Origin: Pengzhenrongella frigida
GTDB lineage: Bacteria > Actinomycetota > Actinomycetes > Actinomycetales > Cellulomonadaceae
DNA: 64,000 bases
Assembly (NCBI RefSeq): GCF_004168625.1
Contig: NZ_SDWW01000001.1
Location: 1 to 64,000, forward strand
Direction of reading: 5' to 3'
This document shows positions 4,421-61,247 of this stretch, piece after piece (within the stretch, counting starts at the first letter, position 1; the number at the start of each line of letters is the position of its first letter). The translations under genes and the position numbers were made by a program. The notes under the pieces were generated by a model. It was not told the DNA's origin. It saw only the letters and a list, made by a program, of their open reading frames with translations, and did not search any database.

Positions 4421-4503
4421 GCCAGGGAGCCTAGTCTCGGCGGCTAGCCTGGCCGAGCCCCGGCGACCTCGACGGCGCGCCACGGTGCACGAAGGAGCGA
4501 GTC

Positions 4504-5433: not shown

Positions 5434-5448
5434 GAACGCCGGCGAAGC

Positions 5449-5475
5449 CTTACAACGAGTGCCGAGGTGTCGATG
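5449..5475 (+). promoter_or_regulatory. Sigma-28-like promoter (CTTA-N16-GTCGATG)
   Basis: CTTA at 5449-5452 and GTCGATG at 5469-5475 are separated by exactly 16 bp. Transcription would start near 5483, giving a leader of about 30 nt with a GGAAGGTC ribosome binding site in front of the lipoprotein ATG at 5513. It is the weakest of four such elements in the window, with one mismatch in the -35 and two in the -10 relative to CTCA/GCCGATA. Confidence 0.45.
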
Positions 5476-5512
5476 CTTTAGCCGACAGTCGCACACTTGA
5501 CGGAAGGTCACC

Positions 5513-6070: not shown

Positions 6071-8856
6071 CCGCCGAGCCATCGCCCAGTGCACCCTCGA
6101 CCACTGCCCCATCGCCCAGTGCACCCTCGACCACCGCGCCATCGACGATCAAGCCGTCGACGATCAAGCGGGGCGGCTGGTTCCGACACCAGCACGTGTC
6201 ACCCCTGCAGGCGTTGTTCGGTGTCGGTCTGGTCCTCATCGGGTCCGCGACCCCTGCACTCGTCCTGTGGGACTACTCGGGCCTCAGCTCGACGGTGGAG
6301 AGCTTCGGCATCGCGCAGAACGTCACCGGGGTCCTCGCCGACGCGCAGCGCGACACGTTGCTGACGGTCATCGCCCTCGACGCGCTCGAGGAGGACCTGG
6401 CGGACGACCAGGCGGACGACGACGGCACGACGATCGGCACCGTCCAGGCGCAGGTCGCGTTCCTCGGTCAGCAGCTCAAGGTGCTCGAGTCGCAGGTCCT
6501 GACCTCCAAGAACGCCCCCCGGATCCGCCAGGCCGTGCAGGCCCAGGTCGCGCTCAGTGACCGGCTCGACCAGCTCACCTCGACCGACGACCCGCCCGAT
6601 CGCGAGGCCGTCCTGGCGGCGCTCCCGGCGATGAAGCAGGACGCGACGCTGGCCCAGAGCGCGCTGCGTGGCCTGTACGGGGAGTACGAGAACGCCTTCT
6701 ACGGTGACCTCTCCGACCAGCTCGGGGCGGGCCGCGGCCGGCAGGTGGTGATCTTCGGGTTCGCGCTGGTCTCGCTCGCGTTGGGCGCCGGCCTGGCCTG
6801 GTCGCTCCGCGCGAGCGTGCGCCGCGACTTCGACCAGGCCTACGACCTGCTCGCCCGGGAGGCGGCCGAACGCACGCTCGCCCAGGACGCTCTCGGGCGC
6901 AGTGAACGACTGTTCCGCGCGCTCGTGCAGGAGAGCCGCGACCTCACGCTCATGCTCGACGGCGACCTCCAGGTCACCTACGCGAGCCCGTCCGCGGGGC
7001 TCCTGCTCCGCGAGTCCCGGCGGGGGTCGAGCACCACGTCCCTCCTCGATCTCGTGCACCCGAGCGCCGCCGTGTTCGTCGCCCAGGCGGTCCAGCAGTG
7101 CCTGACGGAGCCGGGTCGGAGCATCCAGCTCGATCTGCCGTTGCTGCTCGACCCGCCGTTGCCGGTGTCGCCGCAGCTGGACCCGTCGCAGCTGGACCCG
7201 TCGCGGCTGGACCCGTCGCGGCTGGACCCGTCGCAGCCGGACCCGTCGCAGGTGGACCAGTCGCAACCGGACCAACCCGGCGCAGCCGGCGTCGTCGCCC
7301 CGGACCTCGCGCCGCCCGACCACCACTTCGTCGTGCAGCTGACCAACCTCCTGGACGACCCCGCGATCCGCGGGATCGTCGCCAACGCGCACGACGTCAC
7401 CGACCGCACCCGCCATGCCGCCGCGCTCGAGCACCTCGCCTACCACGACCGCCTCACCGGCCTGCCGAACCGGCTGAGCCTTGAATGCGACCTCGAGGTG
7501 CTCGACGTCCGGTGCTCCGGGGCGACCGTCGTCGTGCTCGACCTCGACGGGTTCCGCGTGGTCAACGAGCGGATCGGCGAGGACGACGGCAACGGCCTGC
7601 TGCGCGACCTGGGCCACCGGCTCGCGTTGCTGGCCGACTTCTCCGCCTTCCACCTCGGCGGCGACGTGTTCGCCCTGCTGGGCGCGACGGCACTCGACGG
7701 CCCGGCGGTGGAACGCCTCGTCACCGAGGTTCGCCGCCAGGTGGCGGCCGCGGGCACCGAGAAGCACAACCTGCAGCTCAGTGCCGGGATCGGGGTGGCG
7801 ATGGGGTTGCTCGCGACGGTGCACGGGCACGAGGTGCTCCGGCACGCCGACTCGATGGTCCATCAGGCGAAGCTGCAGGGCGCCGGTCGGCTCGTCGTGC
7901 TCGACGAGGCGCGCACCCAGGCCGCGGCCGAACGCAGCGCGGCGGCCGAGAAGCTGTCGCACGCGCTCGAGCGCAACGAGCTCGAGGTCTACTTCCAGCC
8001 GATCGTCGACGCCCAGAGCCGGCAGTGGGTCGCGGTCGAGGCTCTCCTGCGCTGGCACTCCCTGGACGGCTTGATCTCCCCCGCGACGTTCATCCCGATC
8101 GCCGAGCAGACGCGTCTGATCCTGCCGATCGGCCGCTGGGTGCTTGCCACCGCCGCCCGCGAGGTCGTCCGCGTCCGTGCGATCACCGGGCTGCCGCTGC
8201 GCGTGAACGTCAACGTGACGGCGTGCCAGCTGCAGGAGACCGACTTCATCGAGCACGTGCTCACGGTCCTGGCCGAGACCGGCCTCGAGGCCGACGCCCT
8301 CGTCCTCGAGCTCACCGAGTCCGCCGTGCTCGACGACCCCGAGGCGGCGGTCACGATGCTGTCCCGAGCACGAGCCGCCGGGATGCATGTCGCGCTCGAC
8401 GACTTCGGCACCGGCTACTCGTCCCTGAGCCACCTCCTGCAGCTCCCGGTCGACATCGTCAAGGTCGACCGCTCGTTCCTGCGCAACGTGACCACCTCGG
8501 CGCGTACCCGGCAGCTGCTGCACGCGCTCGTCGACCTCGCGCACCAGCTCGACATGAGCGTCACCGTCGAGGGGGTCGAGTCCGAGGACGAGAACGCCGC
8601 CGTCGTCGAGGCGGGCTGCGACACGATCCAGGGCTTTCTGCTGGCGCGCCCCATGCCGGTCGCGGCCCTGCTCGCCCTGGCCGCGGAGAACCTCGCCCCC
8701 CGACCGGTCGGCGCGCTCCCGGTCGGCGCGCTCCGAGGGGTGGGCGCCGACGCTCCGGGCACCCCCAGCCCGTGGTCGTCCCAGGTCCCCGGCCCGGCGA
8801 CCCCGCGCAGCACCGCCCGGGCTGTCCCGCAACCTAGCGCGTCTCGGGCACCATGA
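6067..8856 (+). CDS. Membrane PAS-GGDEF(degenerate)-EAL protein, probable c-di-GMP phosphodiesterase
   Basis: 929 aa. After a repetitive Pro/Ser/Thr N-terminus comes a membrane segment (about 45-65), an extracytoplasmic helical sensor region (65-215), a second membrane segment (about 222-240), a PAS-like region (280-455, interrupted by a run of PSQLD/PSRLD pentapeptides), a GGDEF domain and an EAL domain. The cyclase signature near residue 531 reads GGDVF, so diguanylate cyclase activity is unlikely. The EAL domain keeps its catalytic residues: VEALLRW (Glu at about 658), the Asn in NVNVTAC, LELTES, DDFGTGYS, VKVDRS, VEGVES and QGFLLARP. It should hydrolyse c-di-GMP, possibly with the degenerate GGDEF as a GTP sensor. 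It is coupled to the upstream lipoprotein and ends overlapping the convergent oxidoreductase gene by 23 bp. Confidence 0.9.
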   Translation: MTAEPSPSAPSTTAPSPSAPSTTAPSTIKPSTIKRGGWFRHQHVSPLQALFGVGLVLIGSATPALVLWDYSGLSSTVESFGIAQNVTGVLADAQRDTLLTVIALDALEEDLADDQADDDGTTIGTVQAQVAFLGQQLKVLESQVLTSKNAPRIRQAVQAQVALSDRLDQLTSTDDPPDREAVLAALPAMKQDATLAQSALRGLYGEYENAFYGDLSDQLGAGRGRQVVIFGFALVSLALGAGLAWSLRASVRRDFDQAYDLLAREAAERTLAQDALGRSERLFRALVQESRDLTLMLDGDLQVTYASPSAGLLLRESRRGSSTTSLLDLVHPSAAVFVAQAVQQCLTEPGRSIQLDLPLLLDPPLPVSPQLDPSQLDPSRLDPSRLDPSQPDPSQVDQSQPDQPGAAGVVAPDLAPPDHHFVVQLTNLLDDPAIRGIVANAHDVTDRTRHAAALEHLAYHDRLTGLPNRLSLECDLEVLDVRCSGATVVVLDLDGFRVVNERIGEDDGNGLLRDLGHRLALLADFSAFHLGGDVFALLGATALDGPAVERLVTEVRRQVAAAGTEKHNLQLSAGIGVAMGLLATVHGHEVLRHADSMVHQAKLQGAGRLVVLDEARTQAAAERSAAAEKLSHALERNELEVYFQPIVDAQSRQWVAVEALLRWHSLDGLISPATFIPIAEQTRLILPIGRWVLATAAREVVRVRAITGLPLRVNVNVTACQLQETDFIEHVLTVLAETGLEADALVLELTESAVLDDPEAAVTMLSRARAAGMHVALDDFGTGYSSLSHLLQLPVDIVKVDRSFLRNVTTSARTRQLLHALVDLAHQLDMSVTVEGVESEDENAAVVEAGCDTIQGFLLARPMPVAALLALAAENLAPRPVGALPVGALRGVGADAPGTPSPWSSQVPGPATPRSTARAVPQPSASRAP
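6079..6168. repeat. In-frame tandem repeats at the N-terminus of the EAL protein
   Basis: A 30-bp unit (6079-6108, 6109-6138) encoding PSPSAPSTTA is followed by a 15-bp unit (6139-6153, 6154-6168) encoding PSTIK. Both are duplicated in frame. They form the disordered cytoplasmic tail before the first membrane segment. Confidence 0.85.
7183..7272. repeat. Six 15-bp in-frame units (PSQLD/PSRLD)
   Basis: Six imperfect copies of CCGTCGCAGCTGGAC encode PS(Q/R)(L/P/V)D pentapeptides in a loop of the PAS region of the EAL protein. No family member needs this insert, so it looks like a slippage-generated expansion. Confidence 0.85.
8704..8733. repeat. 15-bp duplication in the EAL protein tail
   Basis: CCGGTCGGCGCGCTC is present twice in perfect tandem and encodes PVGAL PVGAL just after the EAL domain, 120 bp before the stop codon. 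Confidence 0.8.
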
Positions 8857-41787: not shown

Positions 41788-42183
41788 TCAGGCCGACGAC
41801 TGGTCGCGCGCCGCAGCGGGCCGGGCCACCCGGGCCCCCGCCATGATCGCGACGACCAGGGCGATCCAGTCGACGACCAGTCCGGCTGCCGCGCTCGACG
41901 CGGACGGCAGGAGCGCACCGCAGCTCACGACCACGGCCCCGAGCAGCACGCGGTGCCACCAGTCACGGTCCAGGAGCACCCCGGCCGCGGCCGCGACGAA
42001 CGCGGCCGCGGCGACCAGGCACAGCACCCCGACCGCCAGCCCGGCCGGCGACCCGGGGGTCGGGCTCACGTCGGCGAACCGCAGCCAACCCGGCTCGCCG
42101 AGCCGCCACAGCAGCACGACCCCCACGAGGTGCATCAGGCCGTGGCCTGCCAGCGCCGCGGCCCCCGCCCGCCGGCCGATCAT
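41788..42183 (-). CDS. Small four-helix membrane protein coupled to the ABC exporter
   Basis: 131 aa from the ATG at 42183, which overlaps the permease stop (TGATG). Four hydrophobic segments (AALAGHGLMHLVGVVLLWR, GLAVGVLCLVAAAAFVAA, WHRVLLGAVVVSCGALLPS, GLVVDWIALVVAIMAG). Unknown family. Coupling suggests it is an accessory part of, or is protected by, the upstream exporter. Confidence 0.6.
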   Translation of the reverse strand: MIGRRAGAAALAGHGLMHLVGVVLLWRLGEPGWLRFADVSPTPGSPAGLAVGVLCLVAAAAFVAAAAGVLLDRDWWHRVLLGAVVVSCGALLPSASSAAAGLVVDWIALVVAIMAGARVARPAAARDQSSA

Positions 42184-44726
42184 CAGTCGGAGGCGACCGC
42201 GTCGAGCACGGGCAGGCGGGCGGCGCGCAGGGCCGGCCACAGGGCGGCCAGGACCCCGACGACGGCAGCCAGCGCGAGCATCGCGGTGAGCTGGGCCCAC
42301 GGGATGACCAACGTGGTGAGCCCGGAGTCGGCGAACACGGTGGGCATGACCGCCGCGACGCTCACCCCCACGACCACGCCCACCACGGTGCCGAACACCG
42401 CGGTCAGGACGCTCTCGATGGTGACGATCCCGGCAAGCTGGAGCCGACCCAGGCCCACGGCGCGCATGAGCCCGATCTCGCGGGTCCGTTCGATCACCGA
42501 CAGGGCCAGGGTGTTGACGATGCCCAGGATCGCGATCACGATCGACAGCCCGAGCAACGCGTACAAGATCACCAGGATCTGGTTGACCTGGTTGGCGAGC
42601 TCGGCGGCGAAGTCCTCGGCGTCGAGCACCGAGAGCACCACGTACGGGGCGGCGACCTCGACGAGGTCGGCCCGCAGGGCCCCGAGCCCGGCACCAGGCG
42701 CGGCCGTGACCAGGAGCATCTCGACGGTCGTGTCGGCCGGCCGGATGACCTGGGCGAGCAGGGCGTCGGAGACGATGATCGGTGCGCTGATCATCTGGGT
42801 GTCGATGATCGCGCCCACCGGGGCCGTCACCGACCCCGCCTCTGCGGCCAGGGTGACCTGGTCGCCGACCTGCCAGCCGAGATCCTCGGCCGTCGCCTTC
42901 TGCACCGCGAGCTCGCCGTCCGCGAGGGTGGCCAACGAACCGTCGGTCACGTCGATGTCGACCGTGCGCCCGAACGCCTCCGGGGGGAGGGAGACCACGA
43001 TCATCGACTCCGCCGCCGTGGTGGCTTCGCCCGGTCCGCTCACGTGCGCGGAGCCGTAGCTCGCCTCGTCGACGGAGCCGACCGTGGCCAGTCCCCGGAC
43101 GTCCGCGACGGCACCGCTCGGTACCGCCTGCGTGGCCGACTGCACGGAGAAGTCGGAGATCCAGCCGTCCTCCACGATGGCGCGGGTGGAGGCGGTCGCC
43201 GAGGCGGCCAGGACCGAGGCGGCCCCCACCAGGGCCATCCCGATCATGAGCGCGCCGGCGGTGTTGGCGGTGCGCCGCGGGTTGCGGATGACGTTGCCCC
43301 GGGCCAGGCGGCCCAGCGGTCTGACCGCCGCGACGAACACCGCGGCGAGCACGCCGAGCGTGTGGCGTGCGATGACCGGTGCCAGCACCAGCACGCCGAC
43401 CACCAGCCCGCCGGCGCCGAGCCCGAGCATCGTCGCGCCGTCGGTCTCCGGCCGCACGAGCGCGGCGAGGAGCGCGGCCGCACCGGCAGCCACGATGACC
43501 GTGCCGGCGATCGCGCGCACCCGCAGGGACTTGTCCGTCGTTGCGACGTCGTCGCGCATGGCCTCGACCGGCGCGGTCAGGGCCGCCCGCCGCGCGGGCA
43601 GCGCGGCCGCGACGATGCTCACCACGGTGCCGATGACCAGCGAGATGACCACGGTGCCGGCACTGAGCGGGATGCTCCCGGACAGGTCCATGCCCATCTG
43701 CTCGAACGCGATCCGCAGCAGCGAGACCAGGCCGAGCCCGGCCGCGATCCCCAGCGCGGACCCGAGCAGGCCCACGACGGCGGCCTGGATGAGGATCGAG
43801 GCGAACACCTGGGACGGGGACGCGCCCACCGCACGCAGCAGGGCGAACTCGCGCATGCGCTGGCGCACCGACATGGAGAACGTGTTGGAGATGATGAACG
43901 CCCCGACGAACAGCGAGATCCCGGCGAAGACCAGCATGAACGTCTGGACGAACCCGAGCATGCTCTCGATGTCGGTTCGGGCCTGGTCGCGCATGTAGTC
44001 CCCGGACACCGCCTCGGCGCTGCCGGCGGACAGCACGGGGGCGAGCCGGTCGACGAGGCTCGTCTCGGACACCCCCGGGGCGGCGTATACGGAGATCATG
44101 GGCACCTGACCGTCCGCCGCGAACACCGCGGTCGCGGTCGGAACGTCGAGGAACACGATCGTCGCCCCTGCCATCGGCGCGCCCATCGAGACGTCGGCGA
44201 CGACCGTCACGTCGCGCACCTCGCCCCCGAGGACGACCTGGGTGAGGTCCCCCACCGCCAGCCCGGAGGACGCGAGCGTCTCGGACTCCAGGGCGATCTC
44301 GTCCGCCGACCGCGGCAGCCGGCCCGCCACGACGGTGACCGAGGGGTCGTCCGGGTCGAGCGCCGTCCCGAAGCTGGGCGCCTGCGTGCTGGTCACGGCG
44401 GTGCCGTCGGAACCGACCAGCACGATCGCGCCGGAGATCTCGGGCAGGGCCAGGTCGACCCCGTCGATGTCGGCGAGGGTCGGCGCGAGCGAGGCCGGGA
44501 TCAGGTTGCGGGTGTCGCCCACGTCGGAGGCGGCCGACAGCTCGCTGCCGCGCACGTACGCATCACCGGTCATCGAGCTGTCGACGATGCCGCTGAAGGT
44601 CGAGGACATCATGGTGCGCAGCGAGAACGTGCCCGCCACGAAGGCCACCCCGAGGGTGACGGCGAGGACCGACAGGATGAACCGGACCAGGTGGGCGCGG
44701 ATCCCGCGCAGGGCCACGCGGCCCAT
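42183..44726 (-). CDS. Two-module FtsX-type ABC exporter permease
   Basis: 847 aa. Two FtsX modules. Each has a first membrane segment, a large extracytoplasmic domain and three further segments; the signatures are VRQRMREFALLRAVGASPSQV (about residue 290) and VIERTREIGLMRAVGLGRLQL (about 770). This is the architecture of actinobacterial lipoprotein- or peptide-export permeases. Its start overlaps the ATPase stop (TGATG). Confidence 0.9.
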   Translation of the reverse strand: MGRVALRGIRAHLVRFILSVLAVTLGVAFVAGTFSLRTMMSSTFSGIVDSSMTGDAYVRGSELSAASDVGDTRNLIPASLAPTLADIDGVDLALPEISGAIVLVGSDGTAVTSTQAPSFGTALDPDDPSVTVVAGRLPRSADEIALESETLASSGLAVGDLTQVVLGGEVRDVTVVADVSMGAPMAGATIVFLDVPTATAVFAADGQVPMISVYAAPGVSETSLVDRLAPVLSAGSAEAVSGDYMRDQARTDIESMLGFVQTFMLVFAGISLFVGAFIISNTFSMSVRQRMREFALLRAVGASPSQVFASILIQAAVVGLLGSALGIAAGLGLVSLLRIAFEQMGMDLSGSIPLSAGTVVISLVIGTVVSIVAAALPARRAALTAPVEAMRDDVATTDKSLRVRAIAGTVIVAAGAAALLAALVRPETDGATMLGLGAGGLVVGVLVLAPVIARHTLGVLAAVFVAAVRPLGRLARGNVIRNPRRTANTAGALMIGMALVGAASVLAASATASTRAIVEDGWISDFSVQSATQAVPSGAVADVRGLATVGSVDEASYGSAHVSGPGEATTAAESMIVVSLPPEAFGRTVDIDVTDGSLATLADGELAVQKATAEDLGWQVGDQVTLAAEAGSVTAPVGAIIDTQMISAPIIVSDALLAQVIRPADTTVEMLLVTAAPGAGLGALRADLVEVAAPYVVLSVLDAEDFAAELANQVNQILVILYALLGLSIVIAILGIVNTLALSVIERTREIGLMRAVGLGRLQLAGIVTIESVLTAVFGTVVGVVVGVSVAAVMPTVFADSGLTTLVIPWAQLTAMLALAAVVGVLAALWPALRAARLPVLDAVASD

Positions 44727-45583
44727 CAGTGACCGACCGAGGTGGCAGCCACGCCCGACTCGTCGTCGGCCGCGAGGTCGTTCGCGCCGAGCGAGCCGAG
44801 GACCTCCAGGACCGAGGCCTGGGTCGGGTTGGTGAGCTCGCCGACCAGCAGGCCGTCGGCGAGGAACAGCACCCGGTGCGCGTAGGTCGCCGCCCGCGGG
44901 TCGTGGGTGACCATCACCACGGTCTGGCCGAGGTCGTCCACCGACCGGCGCAGGAACCCCAACAGCTCCGCGGAGGACTTCGAGTCCAGGTTCCCGGTCG
45001 GCTCGTCGGCGAAGATCACCGCGGGCTTGGCCACCAGCGCCCGAGCGCACGCCACCCGCTGCTGCTGCCCCCCGGACAGCTCGTTCGGGCGGTGGTGCAA
45101 CCGCTTGGCCAGCCCGACGGCGGCCACGATCGCGTCGAAGTGGGTCCGGTCGACCGGGCGGCGGGCGATGTCCAGCGGCAACGTGATGTTCTCCGCCGCC
45201 GTCAGCGTCGGGACCAGGTTGAACGCCTGGAAGATGAACCCGAGCCGGGTGCGCCGCAACCGCGTCAGCTGCCGCTGGTTCATCCGGCCGACGTCCTCGC
45301 CGTCGATCACCACGGTGCCCGCGGTGACCGTGTCGAGCCCGGCCATGCAGTGCATGAGCGTCGACTTGCCCGACCCCGACGGCCCCATGATCGCCGTCAG
45401 CTCCCCGCGCACGAAGTCGACGTCGATCCCCGCCAGCGCCTGCACGGCGGTGTCCCCGGAACCGTAGGTCTTGACCAGGCCACGCGCGGAGGCGATCACG
45501 GACCCGCGTCCGGCCGGTTCGCTGGCGGACCGGCCGTCCGTCTGGGTGTCGCCGGCGAGGAGTGCGGTGCTCTGCGTGGTCAT
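44726..45583 (-). CDS. ABC transporter ATP-binding protein (LolD/MacB type)
   Basis: 285 aa from the ATG at 45583 (AGGACGAGC just upstream). Walker A GPSGSGKST, Q-loop FIFQAFNLVPTLT, signature LSGGQQQR, Walker B VIFADEPTGNLD, H-loop VTHD. The first 35 residues are a non-conserved Ser/Thr/Gly-rich tail and the last 35 a variable acidic tail. First gene of the operon ATPase-permease-131-aa membrane protein. Its start codon and ribosome binding site lie inside a perfect 10-bp inverted repeat. Confidence 0.92.
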   Translation of the reverse strand: MTTQSTALLAGDTQTDGRSASEPAGRGSVIASARGLVKTYGSGDTAVQALAGIDVDFVRGELTAIMGPSGSGKSTLMHCMAGLDTVTAGTVVIDGEDVGRMNQRQLTRLRRTRLGFIFQAFNLVPTLTAAENITLPLDIARRPVDRTHFDAIVAAVGLAKRLHHRPNELSGGQQQRVACARALVAKPAVIFADEPTGNLDSKSSAELLGFLRRSVDDLGQTVVMVTHDPRAATYAHRVLFLADGLLVGELTNPTQASVLEVLGSLGANDLAADDESGVAATSVGH

Positions 45584-45648
45584 GCTCGTCCTGTCTGACT
45601 CGGTGCTGCGCGAGAAGGTGGGCGTTCTGTGGTGCCTTGACGAGCATG
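45581..45648 (-). promoter_or_regulatory. Long-range inverted repeat hiding the ATPase start codon
   Basis: CATGCTCGTC (45581-45590) and GACGAGCATG (45639-45648) are perfect 10-bp inverted repeats, 48 bases apart. In the mRNA of the minus-strand ATPase gene the downstream arm is GACGAGCATG, containing the start ATG and part of the ribosome binding site; the upstream arm could pair with it. The stem would block initiation until opened by heat, a ligand, a protein or a translating ribosome. Confidence 0.5.
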
Positions 45649-45928
45649 TCGAGTGACCGACCCGCACGGCATCGGGGATGGCCCTGACCCGACCCTGATC
45701 TCTCCCTGAGTGCGACCTGGGGATTCCCTGTGGGTCATACGTCCCGACCCGAGGATCCCCTACCCGCGGTACAAAGAGCACGGCAATTTCTGCGCGAGGC
45801 AATGACGCCGCAACACCTGGGAACGAAAGGGACAGATGGTTCGACGCCCACCCAAACGATGGGAGTATTTGGCGCAGCCCCCCGGTACCACGCCCGCGCG
45901 GCCCGGACGTGAAACAGCTGGAGATGAC
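45584..45928. other. 345-bp divergent intergenic region
   Basis: The only gap above 300 bp in the window. It separates the ABC exporter operon (minus) from the SpeD-like/LuxI-like pair (plus). Apart from the start-codon inverted repeat I see no gene. An in-frame ATG at 45836 with AAAGGGA nearby could extend the SpeD-like protein by 31 residues, but that part does not look like the domain. GC content drops around 45770-45860 (GGTACAAAGAGCACGGCAA and neighbouring AT-richer stretches), so promoters probably lie there, but I could not assign a convincing pair of boxes. Confidence 0.6.
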
Positions 45929-46270
45929 GTGCGAGACCTGGCCCCTGAGATCTGCCGACAGCGACTCGTCGTCGAAGGGCTCTGCCGCGAGCCGATCGAC
46001 GCCGCTTCGATCACCGCGTACCTGTCGACCCTGTCGAAGACGATCGACATGGTCGCGCTGATGGAGCCCGTGACGCACCAGTCCCCGCTCTACGGGTGGG
46101 CCGGGTGGATCCACTGGGAGACCTCCGGCGCGCACTTCTACGCCTGGGACGTCCCCCGCCTGTTCTTCAGCGTCGACGTGTACGCCTGCAAGGCCTTCTC
46201 CGCCGCCGCCGTGGTCGACCTGACCCGGGAGTGGTTCGAGGCGACCGACGTGGTCTTCAAAGAGTTCTGA
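45929..46270 (+). CDS. SpeD (S-adenosylmethionine decarboxylase)-fold protein lacking the canonical pyruvoyl serine
   Basis: 113 aa from the GTG at 45929 (GGAG five bases upstream). The order QRLVVEGL, GWAGWIHWE, GAHFYAWD, FFSVDVYACKAF mirrors prokaryotic SpeD (LLVDLYG, GVVLLAESH, HTWPE, AAVDIFTC). At the autocleavage site SpeD has Glu-Ser-His; here it reads Thr65-Ser66-Gly67-Ala68-His69, so the residue before His is Ala and pyruvoyl formation at the usual place is not possible. The conserved Cys of the FTC motif is kept (Cys87). It may bind AdoMet without decarboxylating it, or be a divergent enzyme using Ser66. Coupled by TGATG to the acyltransferase gene. The fold assignment is by eye. Confidence 0.6.
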   Translation: MRDLAPEICRQRLVVEGLCREPIDAASITAYLSTLSKTIDMVALMEPVTHQSPLYGWAGWIHWETSGAHFYAWDVPRLFFSVDVYACKAFSAAAVVDLTREWFEATDVVFKEF

Positions 46271-47034
46271 TGGCGGCCGAGACCCGGATGTACTTCGGCG
46301 CGCAGGGCGCACTGCTCGCCTCCGCCCGGGAGTGCGAGGCCGAGGTGTTCCTGCGGTGGTTCGGCAACACCCGCGAGCAGCTCGACGCGGAGTACGGCCC
46401 GTACGAGGACAGCTCCGTCTTCCTCGTCATCGCCGACTCCCACGACGAGGTCCTCGGTGCGGTCCGGCTGCTCGTCCCCGGGGGCGCGGCCGGGCTCAAG
46501 ACGCTCACCGACATCGGCGACGAGCCCTGGGGTGTCGACGGGACGCGCGCGAGCGCCGCGGTCGGCCTCGACCTCGGGACCACCTGGGAGATCGCGACCC
46601 TCGGGGTGCGGCGCGGCACGGCGGCGAGCGGGCTGCGGCTCTCGCTCGCGCTCTACCACGGCCTGATGACGGTGGCCCGCGCGAACCGGGTGACCTCGTT
46701 CGTGGCCATCCTGGACGAGCGGGTCCGCCGCCTGCTGGGGTCCGTCGGGATCGTGATGCGCGCGCTGCCGGGAACGAGCACGGCGGCCTACCTGGGCTCG
46801 GCGTCGAGCACCCCGGTCTTTGCGCACTTCACCCCCATGGTCGAGAACCAGCGTCGCCAGTTCCCCGACTCCTACCGCCTGGTCACCCTCGGGATCGGCC
46901 TCGACGGCGTCGCGGTCCCGAGCCTGGCCGGCTTCCGGCTGGGTTCTCGTGGGTCCGCGGCTCCGGTCGGGCAGCCGGTGGCCTCTCCCCTGGCCGTCCT
47001 CGCGGCGCGATCAACCCTGGTCGGGCGCAGCTGA
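46270..47034 (+). CDS. LuxI/FeeM-type N-acyl (amino acid or homoserine lactone-like) synthase
   Basis: 254 aa; ATG overlaps the previous stop. The N-terminal half follows the autoinducer-synthase pattern: Arg20, VF at 26-27, Trp30, the acidic pair near 46-47, then FLVIADSHDEVLGAVRLLVP with the G-x2-RLL-x-P motif (Arg66). The second half continues with WEIATLGVRR, a central helix (LALYHGLMTVARANRV) and VGIVMRALPG, as in GNAT-fold LuxI and FeeM enzymes that use acyl-carrier protein or acyl-CoA. LuxI enzymes are rare in actinobacteria. The coupled SpeD-like gene, from another AdoMet-using family, suggests a joint product. The last 40 residues are a disordered tail overlapping the convergent GGDEF-EAL gene by 24 bp. 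Confidence 0.62.
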   Translation: MAAETRMYFGAQGALLASARECEAEVFLRWFGNTREQLDAEYGPYEDSSVFLVIADSHDEVLGAVRLLVPGGAAGLKTLTDIGDEPWGVDGTRASAAVGLDLGTTWEIATLGVRRGTAASGLRLSLALYHGLMTVARANRVTSFVAILDERVRRLLGSVGIVMRALPGTSTAAYLGSASSTPVFAHFTPMVENQRRQFPDSYRLVTLGIGLDGVAVPSLAGFRLGSRGSAAPVGQPVASPLAVLAARSTLVGRS

Positions 47035-49374
47035 CCAGCCGGTCCCTCTGCCCCGGGTCCGTCCGGGCTCCGACCGGCGCGCCGTGCCGGGAACGGCATC
47101 GAGCCCGTCGAGGCCGGGGACTCCGTGCTCGGCGCACCAGCGCCGCACCCAGGCCGCCACCTCGTCAGCAGGCATCGGCCGGGCGATCTGATACCCCTGG
47201 AAGACGTCGACCCCGAGCGGGATCAGCTCCGCCGCCGTGGCCGCATCCTCGACGCCCTCGGCGACCAGCCGCAGGCCGAGTGCGTGCGCCATGTGGGTCG
47301 TGGTCTGCACGATCATCCGGCTCCGCTCGTCGGTGACGACCGTGGAGACGAACGACCTGTCCATCTTGAGCTCCTGCACCGGCAGGTCCCGCAGGTAGGC
47401 CAGCGACGAGAACCCGGTGCCGTAGTCGTCGATGGACACCTGGACGTGGTGCGCGCGCAGGTCGTACAGCGCCTCGCGCGCCCGCTCGGGGTCCGACAGG
47501 AACGAGTCCTCGGTCACCTCGATGAGGATGCTGTCGCCCGGCAGCCCGGCATCGTCGAGCGCCTGGAACAGCACCGGCAGCAGCTGATCGCCGATGAGCT
47601 CCGGCGGGGCGCAGTTCATCGCCACCCGGAACGTGAACCCCAGGTCCACCCAACGACGGGTGTCGGCCAGCATGCGGCGCAGCACCGTCTCCGTCACCGC
47701 CGGCATCAGACCGGACCGGCGAGCGTCCGGCAGGAACGCGATCGGCGAGAGCAGCCCCTCCGTGGGGTGCTGCCAGCGGACGAGCGCTTCCATGGCCACC
47801 ACCTGGCGGGTGCGCGCGTCCACCTGCGGCTGGTACCAGACGACCAGCTGGTCCTCGGCGATCGCCTGGCGCAGGTCCTCGCCGCGCCGCAACCGCTGCC
47901 GCGAGAAACCGTCCTGGGAGGTGTCGAAGTGCAGCACCCCGGCCCGGGAGTGCTTGGCCTCGTACATGGCGATGTCGGCCCGGCGCAGCAGCTCGGTCGA
48001 GGAGGTGTCGGCCGCTTCCCGGACGGTGATGCCCACCGAGGCATCGATCGAGAGGTCGATCGAGTCGACCCGCAGCGGGGACTGCAGCACGACGCGCACC
48101 AGCTGCGCGATCTCGAAGAACCGGAGCTCGTCATGACCGGGAGCGAGCAGGGCGAACTCGTCCCCTCCCAGCCGAGCGACCAGGACGTCCGGGTCGAGCG
48201 CAGCCCGCATCCGGTTCGCCAGGGTCTTGAGGACCTCGTCACCGACGGCGTGGCCCAGGCTGTCGTTGATGTCCTTGAAGCCGTCGAGGTCGAGCAGCAT
48301 GAACCCGAGCGGAGACCCGTCCCGCAGGGCCTCGTCGGCCGCCGCGAGCAGGGCCCGGCGGTTGGGCAGCCCGGTCAGCTCGTCCGTGAGCGACAGCCGC
48401 ATGGCCTCGGCCGCCCCCTGCGCCTCGCGCAGCGCGAGCATCATGCGCGCCCCGGCGCTCACGAGCGTGACGATCGCCGGCAACATGATGTAGATCCCGA
48501 TCCCGCCCGGAGGGTGCAGGACGAGCACGGTGACCGCGAGCGCACCGGCGACGGGGAGCACCCCCATGTTCTGGCGCTCGATGGGGCGGGCCACGATCGG
48601 CGTCGGGCACGAGATCGCCCCGCTGACGATGGCGATGAAGCTGAAGCCCCAGATCGCGTCGAGCAGGAGGCTCGAGGAGTACGAACCGGCCGAGAGGCTG
48701 GAGATGAACGTGGTGTCGGCCGCCGCCAGACCGAGGAAGCCCGCAGCCAGGGTGAGGGTGCGTCGGGAGTGATCACGCATCCGCAGCATCATCTGGGCGA
48801 GCACGAGGGTGGCCAGGATCAGGTCGATCAGGGGGTAGAGGATCGCGAGGAGCAGCTGCAGACCGCCCCGCGAGAACGTCCCGGACAGCGGGGTGAGGAG
48901 CGCGAAGCCGGCCAGGCAGATCGCGGCCCCGCAGACCACGGCCGCCTCGAGCCAGACCGCGGCCGTCGGCAGGCGTCGGCGGGGCACGTCGAGCAGGAGG
49001 AACGCCGCCATCCCGAGGTACGAGGCCAGGTAGAGGACCTCGCCGGGTGCGGGGAACGTCACCGCCGTCACTGCCTGGCTGGCGCTGACCATCGCGGCGC
49101 CGCCGGCCCACAAGGCGATGCCCGCCGCCAGGAAGAGGAGCGAGAGCCGCCGGCTCGGGTGGTGGACGGCCGCGACGAGCAGGCGCACGAACTGGGCGAC
49201 GAAGAAGAGGGTCAGCGTGATCGCCACAGCCGATCGGACCTGGCTGCTGTCCTGAGAACCGGGCAGGGAGAGGATCCACACGGAGCCCACCCCGACGATC
49301 CACCAGACGGCGGCACCGAGCCCCCGGATCGTCCCCGCTGCGGCCGAACGGGGAGCGACGCCTCGTGGGGCCAT
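47011..49374 (-). CDS. Multi-spanning membrane GGDEF-EAL protein
   Basis: 787 aa from the ATG at 49374 (AGGGAG upstream). About nine hydrophobic segments occupy residues 15-310 and form an integral sensor. The GGDEF domain (about 330-490) has an intact ARLGGDEFALL at about residue 403, so cyclase activity is possible. The EAL domain (about 505-755) has MEALVRWQHP, the Asn in FRVAMNCAP, IEVTEDSF, DDYGTGFSS, LKMDRSFV and VAEGVED. Either or both activities could be present. Its promoter region has a sigma-28-like element at 49449-49475. It faces the SpeD-like/LuxI-like pair tail to tail. Confidence 0.9.
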   Translation of the reverse strand: MAPRGVAPRSAAAGTIRGLGAAVWWIVGVGSVWILSLPGSQDSSQVRSAVAITLTLFFVAQFVRLLVAAVHHPSRRLSLLFLAAGIALWAGGAAMVSASQAVTAVTFPAPGEVLYLASYLGMAAFLLLDVPRRRLPTAAVWLEAAVVCGAAICLAGFALLTPLSGTFSRGGLQLLLAILYPLIDLILATLVLAQMMLRMRDHSRRTLTLAAGFLGLAAADTTFISSLSAGSYSSSLLLDAIWGFSFIAIVSGAISCPTPIVARPIERQNMGVLPVAGALAVTVLVLHPPGGIGIYIMLPAIVTLVSAGARMMLALREAQGAAEAMRLSLTDELTGLPNRRALLAAADEALRDGSPLGFMLLDLDGFKDINDSLGHAVGDEVLKTLANRMRAALDPDVLVARLGGDEFALLAPGHDELRFFEIAQLVRVVLQSPLRVDSIDLSIDASVGITVREAADTSSTELLRRADIAMYEAKHSRAGVLHFDTSQDGFSRQRLRRGEDLRQAIAEDQLVVWYQPQVDARTRQVVAMEALVRWQHPTEGLLSPIAFLPDARRSGLMPAVTETVLRRMLADTRRWVDLGFTFRVAMNCAPPELIGDQLLPVLFQALDDAGLPGDSILIEVTEDSFLSDPERAREALYDLRAHHVQVSIDDYGTGFSSLAYLRDLPVQELKMDRSFVSTVVTDERSRMIVQTTTHMAHALGLRLVAEGVEDAATAAELIPLGVDVFQGYQIARPMPADEVAAWVRRWCAEHGVPGLDGLDAVPGTARRSEPGRTRGRGTGWSAAPDQG

Positions 49375-49448
49375 CGACAACTCCCTAGTCTGCGGCCTTC
49401 TGCGAACCAGGCTCGAGCGGTCGACGCGACTGCGGCAACCATCATTCA

Positions 49449-49475
49449 CATCGGTATGCGAACCGTCGACTTGAG
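49449..49475 (-). promoter_or_regulatory. Sigma-28-like promoter (CTCA-N16-ACCGATG)
   Basis: On the minus strand CTCA (49475-49472) and ACCGATG (49455-49449) with exactly 16 bp between. The start of transcription would fall near 49441, 67 bases before the ATG of the GGDEF-EAL gene. Confidence 0.5.
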
Positions 49476-49525
49476 CCTTCGCCCGCGACGTTCGCGCCGC
49501 GAGCCTACCTGCGGACCGACTCAGG

Positions 49526-51295
49526 TCACCCGCGCGTCGATTCGACCAGGTCGGCCCGCCGCCGGCGGCGATCGGCCTGTTCCGCCGGATCCGGGACGGG
49601 CACGGCCGCGAGCAGGGCCCGCGTGTACGCGTGCTGGGGCGCATTGAGGACCGCGGCGGTCGTGCCGACCTCGACGAGCCGCCCGGTACGCATCACCGCG
49701 ACATCGTGCGCGACGAGGTCGATGACGGCGAGGTCGTGGCTGATGAACAGGCAAGCGAAGCCCATCTCGGTCTGGAGCTGCTGGAACAGGGCCAGCACGG
49801 TCGCCTGGACCGACACGTCGAGGGCACTGGTCGGCTCGTCGGCGATCAGCAGGTCCGGCCCCAGCACGAGCGCCCTGGCCAAGCTGACGCGCTGCCGCTG
49901 GCCGCCGGAGAGCTCGTGCGGGAAGCGACGGGCGAAGGACGCGGGCAGCTCCACCGCCTCGAGCAGCTCCGCCACCCGGCGTCGGCGGGAGGCGTCCGAC
50001 CCCACCGCGTGCACCGAGAGCGGTTCGGAGATGGCTGCCCCGACGCTGGACCGCGGGTTCAGCGAGGCCGACGGGTCCTGGAACACGAACCCGAACCGCC
50101 GACGCAGGTCCCGCAGCACCCGGGGCGAGGCGGTCCGCAGATCCGTGCCGAAGACCTCGATGCTGCCGCTCACGGCCGGCACCAGGCCCACCGTGGTGCG
50201 CCCCACCGTCGTCTTGCCCGATCCGGACTCGCCAACCAGGCCGAGCACCTGGCCGGGCGCGATGGTGAACGAGACCCCGTCGACCGCGCGCAGACGGGGG
50301 GCCCCGAGCCGACCGGCGAACTCCACCACGAGGTCGCGGACCGCCAGCGCCGGGATCGAGGGCGGCACGACGACGGGCGGACCGGGAACGGAGGTGACGA
50401 CCGCCGGGCCAGGAGCGGCTGCCACGGCGGCCGGGCCGGGATCGGCGCTCAGCGACCGGCCCTGGCCCAGGTGCGGGACCGCGGCGAGCAGCCGGCGCGT
50501 GTACGGGTGCGCGGGAGCAGCGAAGATCTGCGCGACGGAGGCCTCCTCGACGACCTCGCCGCGGTACATCACCACGACCCGGTCGGCCAGGTCGGCGACC
50601 ACGCCCATGTTGTGGGTGATCAGCACGATCGCGGTGCCGAGGCGGTCGCGCAGGTCGCGCAGCAGCTCGAGGATCGCAGCCTGGACGGTGACGTCGAGAG
50701 CCGTGGTCGGCTCGTCGGCGATGATCACCTCGGGCTCGCACGCGATTGCGATCGCGATCATGACGCGCTGCTTCTGTCCGCCCGAGAGCTGGTGCGGGTA
50801 CGAGTGGATGCGGCTGGCCGCGTCCGGGATGCCCACGAGCTCGAGAAGCTCGACGGCGCGGGCGCGGGCGGCGCGGCGGGACATCGGCCGGTGCACGCGC
50901 AGGGCCTGCACGACCTGCCAACCCACGGTCCGGACCGGGTCCAGCGAGGTGGCGGGCTCCTGGAAGATCATCGCGATCCGGTCCCCGCGCACCTTGCGCA
51001 TCGACTCCCCGCGCAGGCCGGTGAGCTCGACGCCGTCGAGCTGGGCCGACCCGGCGACGGTGGCCGTGCCGGGCAGCAGCCCGAGCAGCGCGCGCGAGCT
51101 CACCGACTTGCCGGACCCCGACTCCCCCACCACGGCGACGATCTCGCCGGGGGCGACGGTGAAGCTGACCTCGCGCACGGCGCGCACCGGGCCGGCGTCG
51201 GAGGCGAACGTGACCGAGAGCCGGTCGAAGGCGAGCACGGGCCGGGCCGGGCCGGTCGAGGCGGTGGGGACGGCGGGCACGGTCGGGGCGGTCAT
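49526..51295 (-). CDS. Fused two-domain ABC ATPase of a dipeptide/oligopeptide transporter (DppD-DppF fusion)
   Basis: 589 aa. Two complete ATPase units. First: GESGSGKSV, LSGGQKQRV, VIIADEPTTALD. Second: GESGSGKTT, LSGGQRQRV, LLIADEPTSALD, each with the family's LFISHDLAVI or LITHNMGVV segment. They are joined by a Pro/Val/Ala-rich linker (about 290-325) of low complexity. Last gene of the uptake operon; its ATG overlaps the upstream permease stop (ATGA). Confidence 0.92.
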   Translation of the reverse strand: MTAPTVPAVPTASTGPARPVLAFDRLSVTFASDAGPVRAVREVSFTVAPGEIVAVVGESGSGKSVSSRALLGLLPGTATVAGSAQLDGVELTGLRGESMRKVRGDRIAMIFQEPATSLDPVRTVGWQVVQALRVHRPMSRRAARARAVELLELVGIPDAASRIHSYPHQLSGGQKQRVMIAIAIACEPEVIIADEPTTALDVTVQAAILELLRDLRDRLGTAIVLITHNMGVVADLADRVVVMYRGEVVEEASVAQIFAAPAHPYTRRLLAAVPHLGQGRSLSADPGPAAVAAAPGPAVVTSVPGPPVVVPPSIPALAVRDLVVEFAGRLGAPRLRAVDGVSFTIAPGQVLGLVGESGSGKTTVGRTTVGLVPAVSGSIEVFGTDLRTASPRVLRDLRRRFGFVFQDPSASLNPRSSVGAAISEPLSVHAVGSDASRRRRVAELLEAVELPASFARRFPHELSGGQRQRVSLARALVLGPDLLIADEPTSALDVSVQATVLALFQQLQTEMGFACLFISHDLAVIDLVAHDVAVMRTGRLVEVGTTAAVLNAPQHAYTRALLAAVPVPDPAEQADRRRRRADLVESTRG

Positions 51296-56811: not shown

Positions 56812-58752
56812 GTGCCCGCTCCGAGTTCTTCCTGCGCCGGCATGGACCCCCTCGTGCGTTCGCCGGACGCGCGAGCCGCGTGGCACCTGCTCGACGCGCT
56901 CGAAGCGCCGACCTGCACCGTCCGGGCCGACAGCGAGATCGTCGAGGGCAACTCCGCCTGGCGGCAGTTCGCGAGCCAGAACGGCGGACACCCCGCCACG
57001 ACGAGCATCGGCAGCAACTACCTGCAGGCGTGCGACCAGGCGATCGACGGCCCGGGCGCCGTCGGCGCGCGGCACGTGGCCACCGGGCTGCGCGCCGTCC
57101 TGGCCGGCGACGCGGAGCGCTACCAGAGCGAGTACCCCTGCCACGGCGACGGCGAGCAGCGCTGGTTCAGCGTCCGGATCGTCCCGCTCGAGGTCGACGG
57201 CGGCCCCGGGGCGCTGATCAGCCACGTCGACGTCACGGCGATGCACCTCGCGCAGGACGCCCTCGCCCACCAGGTGCTGCACGACGCCCTCACGGGGCTC
57301 CCCAACGGCGCTCTCCTCGCCGACCGGCTGGGCCAGGCCCTCGTGGACAGCATCCGCGGCGACCGTGGGGTCGGGGTCGCGTACATCGACATCGACCACT
57401 TCAAACGGGTCAACGACAGCCTGGGGCATGCCGCCGGCGACGCGCTGCTGGTGCAGGTGGCGCGGCGGCTCACCAGCTGCATGCGCGCGGGCGACACGCT
57501 CGCGCGGTACTCGGGGGACGAGTTCGTCGCCGTCTGGCGCGACGTCGCCTCCGACGAGGACGCCGCCATCCTCGGCGGTCGGCTCGCCCGGTCGCTCACG
57601 GCTCCGTTCGAGATCGGGGCCGCCTCGGTCAACATCACCGCGAGCGTCGGGGTCGTCGTCGGGCAGCCCACGCAGACGGGTGACGAGCTGATGCTCGCGG
57701 CGGACGCGGCGATGTACGACGCGAAGAGCCGCGGCCGCGGCCGGGTCCGCGTGTTCAGCGCCGAGCTGCGCGACCACCCGGGGGACGACCTCGCCACCGA
57801 GGTCGCGCTGCAGGCAGCCCTGTCCCGCTCCGAGCTCGTGCTGCACTACCAGCCGGTCATCGACCTGTGGACCGGTCGGGTGGTCGGGGTCGAGGCGCTG
57901 GTCCGCTGGCAGCACCCCGAACGGGGACTGCTCCCGCCACGGCACTTCATCCCGACCGCCGAGCTGAGCGGGCTGATCGTCCCGCTCGGCCGCTGGGCGC
58001 TGGACCGCGCGTGCCGCGACGCCGCAGCGATGACCGGACCGGCCGCCGGGCTCGACGTCGCGGTGAACCTCTCGGCCCGCCAGCTCACGCATCCGGACGT
58101 CGTGCGGCACGTGCGCGACGCGCTGGAGAGCAGCGGCCTCGACCCTCGCCGCCTCATGCTCGAGGTGACCGAGTCCGCCGTCCTGGAGGACGACGAGGTC
58201 GCGGCGGTCGCGCTCGACACGCTGTCCGCGCTCGGGGTGCGCATCGCGATCGACGACTTCGGCACGGGTTACAGCTCCCTGCTCTACCTGCGCCGGTACC
58301 CGATCGATGCGCTCAAGCTCGACCGCGCCTTCGTGTCCGGCCTGACGACCAGCCCCGACGACGAGGCGATCTGCGCCAGCGTGGTCAGCCTCGCGCACGC
58401 CGTCGGGGCCACCTCGATCGCCGAGGGGGTGGAGACCGTCGGGGAGTACGCCGCCCTGCGCGGCTACGGGTGCCAGCAGGCCCAGGGCTTCCTGTGGTCC
58501 CCCGCCGTGCCGATCGAGGAGCTCGCCGAGGTCGTGGTCGCGTGCCACCGGGTACCCCGACCGGCCCGGACCCGCCCGCACCTGCCGCACGCGACCCCAC
58601 CTGCGCCCGACGTGGCTGCGCACATCGCCAGCCTCCACCGGGACGGCGCCTCGCTGCAGACGATCGCCGCCGCGCTCAACCGCGCGGCCCGCTCCCCCCA
58701 GCTCGGTGGCCGCTGGACGGCGAGCACCGTCGCTCGCCACCTCGCGGGCTGA
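56812..58752 (+). CDS. PAS-GGDEF-EAL protein with C-terminal helix-turn-helix-like tail
   Basis: 646 aa from the GTG at 56812 (an ATG at 56842 is possible). Soluble: PAS-like domain (about 25-150), GGDEF domain with YSGDEFVAVW at about residue 233 (SGDEF, a permitted variant), EAL domain with VEALVRWQHPERG at about 360 and conserved VNLSARQL, LEVTESAV, DDFGTGYSS, LKLDRAFV, IAEGVE. Residues about 598-646 (IASLHRDGASLQTIAAALN ... GGRWTASTVARHLAG) resemble the small DNA-binding Recombinase domain of large serine integrases, an unusual addition. A sigma-28-like promoter precedes it. It is divergent from purT. Confidence 0.88.
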   Translation: MPAPSSSCAGMDPLVRSPDARAAWHLLDALEAPTCTVRADSEIVEGNSAWRQFASQNGGHPATTSIGSNYLQACDQAIDGPGAVGARHVATGLRAVLAGDAERYQSEYPCHGDGEQRWFSVRIVPLEVDGGPGALISHVDVTAMHLAQDALAHQVLHDALTGLPNGALLADRLGQALVDSIRGDRGVGVAYIDIDHFKRVNDSLGHAAGDALLVQVARRLTSCMRAGDTLARYSGDEFVAVWRDVASDEDAAILGGRLARSLTAPFEIGAASVNITASVGVVVGQPTQTGDELMLAADAAMYDAKSRGRGRVRVFSAELRDHPGDDLATEVALQAALSRSELVLHYQPVIDLWTGRVVGVEALVRWQHPERGLLPPRHFIPTAELSGLIVPLGRWALDRACRDAAAMTGPAAGLDVAVNLSARQLTHPDVVRHVRDALESSGLDPRRLMLEVTESAVLEDDEVAAVALDTLSALGVRIAIDDFGTGYSSLLYLRRYPIDALKLDRAFVSGLTTSPDDEAICASVVSLAHAVGATSIAEGVETVGEYAALRGYGCQQAQGFLWSPAVPIEELAEVVVACHRVPRPARTRPHLPHATPPAPDVAAHIASLHRDGASLQTIAAALNRAARSPQLGGRWTASTVARHLAG

Positions 58753-59606: not shown

Positions 59607-61247
59607 ATGGTGCTGCACGACCCCGTCGGCCTTGCCTACGCCGCGGCCGCCGTCGTCTTCGGCTGGATCGCCCGCCTCACCTGGGCGCGCCGGGCCCACA
59701 ACCCGGCCCTTGCCAGCTCCCTGGTGGTGGTCATGCTGGGGCTCGGGGCCTCGTGCGTCGCCAACGCGATCGCGGTGTCGAGCGCGAACGAGCAGACCGC
59801 GGCGATCGCGACGTTGGCGATCCTGCCCACCGCCGGCATCGCGGCCGGCGCGTTCTTCTGCCTCGGACTGAGCTGCGCACAGCCGCAGTGGCGGGCACAC
59901 CGAACCCTGCTCCTCTGGCTGCTGATCGAACCGGTCGCGATCACCGCGGCCGTGGTGACCAACCGCTGGCACGAGTGGGTGTACGCAGGCCCGGGCGCCA
60001 CCGACCTGACCGGGTCGGCCGCCTGGCTGCACGGCTCGGCGTACTGGTCGCACACGGGGTACTGCTACGCGATGTTCGGTGCCGGCTGCGTGCTGATCGC
60101 CTGGGGGTGGTGGACCGCCCCGGCACCCTTCCGGCGGCAGCGGCTCGCCTTCCTCCTCGCCGCCCTGATCCCGATCGCCGCCAACGTGGCCTACATCGCG
60201 AGCGGGTTCGACGAGGACGTCGATCCCACCCCGTTCGGGTTCGCCGTGACGGGCGCGATCATGGCCTACGCGATCTTCCGGCAGGAGCTGTTCACCCTGT
60301 CGCCCGTGGCGCGCGCCCTGATCGTCGACCAGATCGGCGACGCGGTGATGGTCGTCAACCCCGCCGGCCGCATCGTCGACCTGAACATCACGGCGTGCGC
60401 GCTCGTCCGGGCGGTGCACCCGCAGGCACCGGACGACCTGATCGGGCTGAGCGCCGAGGGGTACTGCGGCGAGGCCCACGGCTCGGACCAGTCCTCGACC
60501 GAGCTCGTCGTGGACCTGCCGGGCGGCCGGACCGAGTTCCAGGTGCGCTCGTCCCCGCTCCTCGACCGGCGCGGGAGGCTGCTCGGGGAGGTCCTCGTCG
60601 CGCGTGACGTCACCGAGGCGCACGCCCAGGAACGCCGCCTGATCGCCGCCAACACGCGCCTGATCGCCCAGGTCGAGACCATCGACCGGCTCCGCGCGGA
60701 CCTCGTCGAGCTGTCCAGCCGGGACCCGCTCACCGGGCTGCACAACCGGCGCTACATGGTCGACCAGTTCGGGCAGATGGTCACCGCGGCCGAGCGCACC
60801 GGGGAGCCGCTCGCGGTCGTCCTGCTCGACATCGACCGGTTCAAGGCCATCAACGACGTGCACGGCCATCTTGCCGGGGACGACGCCCTCGTCGCCCTCG
60901 CGCAGCGGATCCGGGCCCGGGCCCCGGCCGACGCGCTGGTGGCCCGCTGGGGCGGCGAGGAGTTCTTCGTCGCGCTGCCCGGCACCGACGGCGCCTGCGG
61001 ACTGGCGTTCGCCGACGACGTCCGCAGCCTGTGCGCGCAGGACGGCCTCCCCATCGCCGGGCAGGCGATCCCGTGCACCCTCAGTGGCGGGGTCGCCACC
61101 TACCCCGAGTCGGGCGTCACCCCCAACGAGCTGTTCCACGGTGCCGACCTGGCGTTGTTCGAGGCCAAGGACGCCGGTCGCAACACCGTGCGGCTGCACG
61201 TGCGCTTCACCGGGCCCACGCTCGACAGCCTGCTGCCGCAGACCTGA
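59607..61247 (+). CDS. Membrane 7TM-PAS-GGDEF diguanylate cyclase
   Basis: 546 aa. Seven hydrophobic segments occupy residues 1-225 in the pattern of the histidine-kinase-type 7TM sensor domain. A PAS domain (about 240-345; IGDAVMVVNPAGRIVDLN) and a coiled linker lead to a GGDEF domain (about 370-540). The latter has intact LLDIDRFKAINDVHGHLAGDDAL and RWGGEEFFVALPG at about residue 447, so it should make c-di-GMP. No inhibitory RxxD is seen before GGEEF. Expressed from the sigma-28-like promoter at 59531-59557. Confidence 0.92.
   Translation: MVLHDPVGLAYAAAAVVFGWIARLTWARRAHNPALASSLVVVMLGLGASCVANAIAVSSANEQTAAIATLAILPTAGIAAGAFFCLGLSCAQPQWRAHRTLLLWLLIEPVAITAAVVTNRWHEWVYAGPGATDLTGSAAWLHGSAYWSHTGYCYAMFGAGCVLIAWGWWTAPAPFRRQRLAFLLAALIPIAANVAYIASGFDEDVDPTPFGFAVTGAIMAYAIFRQELFTLSPVARALIVDQIGDAVMVVNPAGRIVDLNITACALVRAVHPQAPDDLIGLSAEGYCGEAHGSDQSSTELVVDLPGGRTEFQVRSSPLLDRRGRLLGEVLVARDVTEAHAQERRLIAANTRLIAQVETIDRLRADLVELSSRDPLTGLHNRRYMVDQFGQMVTAAERTGEPLAVVLLDIDRFKAINDVHGHLAGDDALVALAQRIRARAPADALVARWGGEEFFVALPGTDGACGLAFADDVRSLCAQDGLPIAGQAIPCTLSGGVATYPESGVTPNELFHGADLALFEAKDAGRNTVRLHVRFTGPTLDSLLPQT

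Follow-up and report, generated by a model that had tools for sequence, protein, structure and literature searches.

What do a small SpeD-like gene and an overlapping acyltransferase gene make together in the actinobacterium Pengzhenrongella frigida? We addressed this question in the window, by which we mean the whole stretch of 64,000 nucleotides analysed here, starting from an earlier note that had read the two genes as a coupled pair for the synthesis of a small molecule, possibly a signal. Both open reading frames (ORFs) described there are real, as is the TGATG at which the SpeD-like ORF ends and the acyltransferase ORF starts (Table 1). A GGAG motif lies five bases 5' of the start codon of the SpeD-like gene; an alternative in-frame start at 45836 would give a 144 aa ORF, and the similarity of relatives begins at the GTG. 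As set out below, the pair is a real, conserved two-gene unit and apparently one that has not been described previously, as the combination of SpeD with LuxI or FeeM is absent from the titles and abstract openings among the open-access matches listed, in the part of the lists shown.

Table 1. Coordinates of the gene pair and of the neighbouring features in the window.
Feature	Position	Strand	Remarks
SpeD-like gene	45929..46270	+	113 aa, GTG start; predicted SpeD fold; Ser66 and Cys87 kept
Putative ribosome-binding site of SpeD-like gene, GGAG	45920..45923	+	likely, from sequence
FeeM/LuxI-fold acyltransferase gene	46270..47034	+	254 aa
GGDEF-EAL gene, multi-TM N-terminus	47011..49644	-	convergent; candidate sensor/output; recurrent neighbour
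FtsX-type permease ORF	42183..45647	-	divergent; part of ABC exporter
ORF with ABC ATPase domain	44726..46312	-	5' part opposite SpeD-like gene
GGDEF domains	7438-7887, 47944-48390, 57277-57741, 60717-61184		

The SpeD-like protein passes the Pfam model AdoMet_dc (PF02675) with 29.6 bits against a cut-off of 25. A search of PDB sequences with this protein returned no AdoMet decarboxylase (AdoMetDC), and the same search with the acyltransferase reached LasI only at E 0.09; since neither gave a clear match, fold searches were needed. Structure prediction followed by a fold search, which the earlier note had proposed for both proteins, yielded a SpeD fold for the one and a LuxI/FeeM fold for the other, in agreement with what it had claimed. 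In the case of the SpeD-like protein, an AlphaFold2 model (pLDDT 96.8, built on an alignment of 52 rows including the window protein) matched the Thermotoga maritima AdoMetDC 1vr7 with a Z of 14.4 and an rmsd of 2.4 over 106 positions; Z values ranged from 14.3 to 14.4 across 1vr7, 1tmi and 1tlu, and Foldseek retrieved 1tmi at E 5.8e-6.

The active site required closer attention, as the protein had been described as lacking the serine that forms the pyruvoyl group. Ala68 does fall at the place of this serine when profiles of 52 SpeD-like and ten canonical SpeD sequences are compared, but this alignment needs two gaps, and we prefer the one that follows. Once four bridging homologues were added, HHalign set Ser66 on the canonical serine with no gap (probability 92.5, E 5e-7), and a multiple alignment of three family, four bridging and five canonical rows placed Ser66 likewise. 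Most likely, then, the pyruvoyl serine is Ser66 and is not missing, a placement that depends on the four bridging sequences, as the close family alone pairs Ala68. Ser66, Gly67, Tyr71 and Cys87 are unchanged in all 56 SpeD-like rows, so the conservation that had been attributed to Cys87 is in fact complete. Ser66 and Cys87 stand at the places of T. maritima Ser63 and Cys83, and Tyr71 stands at that of His68 in 56/56 rows. According to PMC10407285, S63, H68 and C83 are essential for SpeD self-processing. The family is thus a separate branch of SpeD in which two of these three processing residues are retained; because His68 is replaced by tyrosine throughout, self-cleavage may not occur.

The bridging homologues carry ESG or DSG in place of the ESH of canonical SpeD, and come from plasmids of Nostoc, Acaryochloris and Halioglobus and from one actinobacterial genome (L085). 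The plasmid genes (L103:6001-6363, L104:6001-6357 and L105:6001-6357) encode distant SpeD-like proteins with the ESG/DSG...Y...C arrangement and 27.7-31.1% identity; their neighbours include genes for GFA and a hydrolase, a GNAT gene and an ORF that looks sirtuin-like by eye. No FeeM-like partner was seen in the stretches read at these three loci, where one GNAT gene was tested against the profile. Since these distant genes lie in other contexts, this branch of SpeD extends beyond the pair. In its own assembly the SpeD-like family has a single match, and spermidine synthase has none at E 0.001; the AdoMet_dc model found nothing in the assembly and missed even the window gene, which indicates the limited sensitivity of that scan.

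The acyltransferase stays below the cut-off of Pfam Autoind_synth (PF00765; 12.5 bits against 24), and its best sequence family, TIGR03694, is reached at E 5e-8 with 32.6 bits against a cut-off of 111.95, so that neither the Pfam nor the NCBIfam library names the family. Its AlphaFold2 model (pLDDT 90.5, from an alignment of 42 rows including the window protein) has FeeM (2g0b) as its top structural match, with a Z of 17.1 and an rmsd of 2.5 over 174 positions, followed by LasI (Z 16.0) and BjaI (Z 15.7). As a GNAT acetyltransferase comes next at Z 15.2, there is little doubt about the superfamily and more about the nearest family. The residue pattern from which a LuxI relative had been proposed stood in part: F27 and R66 are found in 42/42 rows and R20 in 39/42, while W30 is present in only 9/42. 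Besides F27 and R66, the residues E23, N33, E41, Y42, K77, D149, Y174, L175 and S177 are unchanged in all 42 rows, and an acidic residue is kept at 107. We take the hallmarks of LasI, in numbering and role, to be Trp33, Arg70 and Arg104. In the weak alignment with LasI (E 0.09), these fall on N33, R66 and T110, so that the Trp33 place is held by asparagine and the Arg104 place by threonine or serine in 42/42 rows. The protein therefore has a LuxI/FeeM scaffold with the LuxI hallmarks partly lost, and we do not file it as an acyl-homoserine lactone (AHL) synthase; a plain LuxI-type enzyme is not supported, given the score below the Pfam cut-off and the changed hallmark positions.

A scan of a collection of genome contigs revealed 107 relatives of the SpeD-like protein, and the best 80 of these, together with the window copy, gave 81 loci for examination. 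The survey across actinobacteria that the earlier note had called for bore out its pair: in 75 of the 81 loci (window included), the SpeD-like gene is followed on its own strand by an acyltransferase gene, whose match to the profile begins 19-205 bases (median 95) past the SpeD-like stop. These paired loci span many Actinomycetota and some Saccharibacteria. The acyltransferase match in L069 is weak (E 5.5e-4), and L014, L056, L057 and L064 run to contig ends. Across 71 loci, the spacing, counted to the first possible acyltransferase start after the SpeD stop and so minimal, is an overlap in 22, 0-30 bases in 42 and 31-200 bases in seven. The Saccharibacteria-type loci L057, L060, L062, L069 and L079 share a FolD-type gene upstream of the pair, as judged by clustering of neighbours and, for L062, by Pfam.

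Six of the 81 loci are unpaired. Two of them (L035 and L065) have a strong acyltransferase match elsewhere in their genomes (G595 and G599), and for the other four (L039, L053, L055 and L078) an acyltransferase match is absent from the whole genome, as it also is from G275, which has a distant SpeD-like gene. In the metagenome-assembled genomes of L035 and L065, the copy in question is a second, solo SpeD-like gene that adjoins an ORF resembling, by eye, old yellow enzyme or an esterase. In a Micavibrio genome (L055:8001-10614), a solo SpeD-like gene is accompanied by a class I/II aminotransferase gene and by a 255-aa ORF that matches no Pfam family.

The pair is rare within the phylum. The SpeD-like gene occurs in four of 396 genomes of the phylum and, within the window's family, in 12 of 200 genomes and two of 25 genera. 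The acyltransferase was likewise found in 4/396 phylum genomes at E 1e-6, strongly in the own genome and G284 only; as scoring covered the six top candidates in most genomes, this count is a lower bound, and the copy in G186 was missed. Mean identity over 71 loci is 68% for the SpeD-like protein against 36% for the acyltransferase, as might be expected if the head group were fixed and the acyl chain varied. Distances of the two proteins correlate over the same 71 loci (r 0.88, and 0.45 between groups), which shared descent alone could explain. A tree of 112 columns was poorly resolved and serves for grouping only. We also considered a phage origin and set it aside: a scan of viral contigs gave 27 pattern matches, none of which codes for a relative.

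The G186 copy belongs to a second acyltransferase subfamily. Its 291-aa protein (L111:6891-7766), which has no Pfam match, is 40% identical to the acyltransferase of L069, and the subfamily is related to the main family with an HHalign probability of 96.4. In G186 the gene order is SpeD-like (-), GGDEF-EAL (+, 4446-6938) and acyltransferase (-). There the 3' ends of the acyltransferase ORF and the convergent GGDEF-EAL ORF overlap by 48 bases (L111:6891-6938). The corresponding overlap in the window is 24 bases (47011-47034), and the GGDEF-EAL ORF of the window is probably too long at its 5' end.

Turning to the neighbours, the earlier note had included an ABC exporter and c-di-GMP in its signal reading. 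The exporter did not hold up as a conserved part of the unit. Neither its permease nor its ATPase was found by tblastn (E 1e-20) in the Actinotalea loci L002-L010, for which 8 kb of upstream sequence was available in eight of nine and 849 bases in L003; matches of ATPase type at a distance of 4.4-7.1 kb in L017, L018 and L027 were not taken as conservation. The 5' part of the ATPase ORF in the window, opposite the SpeD-like gene, is probably untranslated.

The link to c-di-GMP does hold as gene adjacency, in several lineages and arrangements. Because gene-call proxies were incomplete, recovering the SpeD gene in 41/81 and then 60/81 loci, statements about neighbours rest on tblastn. Counting matches of at least 240 residues that start within 4.2 kb, and with some contigs short, we found a GGDEF-EAL gene in 50 of the 81 loci: Actinotalea 9/9 (window included), Geodermatophilaceae 22/22, Acidimicrobiia 5/8, others 13/20, Micromonosporaceae 1/15 and CPR 0/7. 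The gene is convergent and downstream in the Actinotalea group, L044, L050, L068 and L073. Geodermatophilaceae and L036 have it upstream on the same strand, and in L020, L049, L056 and L059 it is upstream and divergent. In five of the seven CPR loci (5/81 overall), a histidine kinase lies downstream instead, and each of the five also has a response regulator upstream; HisKA_7TM was found in L079 and not in L062, the two CPR loci scanned. Hydropathy predicts about 5-10 membrane segments in the N-termini of the GGDEF-EAL proteins (where the contig is long enough) and 6-9 in those of the CPR kinases. A sensor domain shared by the two types was not found with HHalign (probability under 1), and comparisons among GGDEF-EAL groups gave probabilities from 0.2 to 100, so these N-termini appear to be related between some groups and not clearly between all.

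These genomes are rich in GGDEF genes, with 12-80 matches in each of eight genomes with pair-type loci and 45 in the own assembly, a c-di-GMP-rich genome with four such domains in the window. From the genome counts, the chance of a GGDEF gene within 4.2 kb on either side of a random site is about 3-9%. A single adjacency is therefore weak evidence, and repeated, rearranged linkage is stronger. Against such linkage, 14 of the 15 Micromonosporaceae loci have no GGDEF-EAL gene within 4.2 kb, although one of their genomes (G608) has 80 GGDEF matches. The pair is linked to membrane signalling genes in most lineages seen, and a synthase-type gene lies beside a sensor-type gene as in a quorum-sensing module, as far as adjacency goes.

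Taken together, these data lead us to propose, at even confidence, that the two genes encode enzymes which together make an acylated small molecule, most probably a signal, to be read by a membrane sensor. The SpeD-like protein would cleave itself and decarboxylate AdoMet or an amino acid to give an amine; the second enzyme, judging by its FeeM/LuxI fold, would transfer an acyl chain from a carrier to that amine; and the product, going by gene order, would be read in Actinomycetota by a multi-TM GGDEF-EAL protein setting c-di-GMP and in Saccharibacteria by a multi-TM histidine kinase with its response regulator. This proposal draws on the pairing in 75/81 loci, the two predicted folds and the retention of Ser66 and Cys87, on the lack of a spermidine synthase match beside a sole SpeD-like family match in the own assembly, and on the sensor genes (GGDEF-EAL in 50/81 loci and between the two genes in G186, a kinase in 5/7 CPR loci). 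Against it stand the tyrosine at the His68 place and the placement of Ser66 through four bridging sequences, the single Micromonosporaceae locus of 15 with GGDEF-EAL, the abundance of GGDEF genes in the genomes with the pair, the SpeD-like genes without a partner in the stretches read (L103-L105) or in the whole genome (L039, L053, L055, L078; G275), and the dissimilar N-terminal domains of the GGDEF-EAL proteins and kinases. It is tempting to extend the proposal to a new class of bacterial acylated-amine signal, the product of a pyruvoyl SpeD-like decarboxylase and a FeeM/LuxI-fold acyltransferase, that would be common, as one chemical language, to epibiotic Saccharibacteria, which would read it by a multi-TM histidine kinase, and to actinobacteria, which include a known host of theirs and would read it by membrane GGDEF-EAL proteins; this we regard as possible and rather doubtful.

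The same folds could serve other ends. The product might be an N-acyl amine lipid or surfactant that acts structurally or chemically and not as a signal, the sensor neighbours being regulatory or incidental. This reading would fit FeeM as top structural match, TIGR03694, a PEP-CTERM/exosortase-associated acyltransferase family, as best if sub-threshold sequence family, and the Micromonosporaceae loci; we think it unlikely, as sensor-type neighbours of two kinds recur in several arrangements and the pair is present in small-genome Saccharibacteria (about 1.0 Mb for the genome of L069). Less probable still is that the SpeD-like protein is no decarboxylase, stays uncleaved and, binding AdoMet, acts as partner or activator to an acyltransferase that uses AdoMet directly, as LuxI does. 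The trypanosome AdoMetDC prozyme, a dead activating paralogue, offers a precedent, and both the loss of His68 in 56/56 rows and the closeness of the genes on one strand, overlapping in the window, agree with it; a dead activator, however, need not keep processing residues, and Ser66 and Cys87 are invariant. We consider it very improbable that a canonical AHL synthase stands beside an unrelated SpeD of the spermidine pathway: the LuxI-fold matches, R66 and the acidic residue at 107 speak for such an enzyme, and the sub-threshold Autoind_synth score and the Asn and Thr/Ser at the LasI Trp33 and Arg104 places (weak alignment, roles presumed) speak against it, as does the absence of a spermidine synthase match from the assembly. 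Chance neighbourhood is barely credible with 75/81 loci paired over deep divergence, the high GGDEF density bearing on the sensor neighbour only. The signal reading thus seems the best supported, as far as sequences and models can tell. If it is true, c-di-GMP control in soil actinobacteria would be tied to a new compound, Saccharibacteria would gain a candidate signal common to relatives of a known host, and the SpeD fold would have a use that is without description among the open-access literature matches listed. Two genes suffice to put the question directly to the test.

How does the pair compare with known systems? With the class 1b AdoMet decarboxylase (SpeD) of T. maritima, the SpeD-like family has in common the fold and the positions of the pyruvoyl serine and catalytic cysteine; it differs in its tyrosine for His68, an N-terminal DLAPxIxRQRLxxEG signature, its pairing with an acyltransferase and an own genome without a spermidine synthase match. 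In PMC10407285, SpeDA and SpeDC are SpeD-derived arginine and ornithine decarboxylases found in polyamine gene clusters, and S63, H68 and C83 are expected to be conserved in them. They resemble the present family as neofunctionalised SpeD relatives in bacteria, candidate phyla included, whereas H68 is replaced by tyrosine here. FeeM, an N-acyl amino acid synthase, is the closest structure to the acyltransferase at 10% identity, and differs in that the enzyme here is paired with a SpeD-like gene. The AHL synthases LuxI, LasI and BjaI share the fold (Z 15-16), F27 and R66 with it, and differ in that it scores below the family cut-off with changed hallmark positions. An InterPro survey of autoinducer synthases (PMC5539150) found only 11 LuxI sequences in the Gram-positive and related phyla covered; the present family scores below the Pfam cut-off for the autoinducer-synthase signature used there. 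Closest in gene order are the 18 adjacencies of a LuxI homologue and a putative sensory kinase that Bernard et al. (2020) list for CPR in Table 1 (PMC7567580), which we set beside our CPR pairs by description only. LuxI-kinase adjacency in CPR is thus already known, and SpeD is absent from the main text of that paper; no link to SpeD appeared among the literature matches listed. As the same paper also cites the saccharibacterium TM7x, which lives with an Actinomyces, a pair common to Saccharibacteria and actinobacteria is worth noting.
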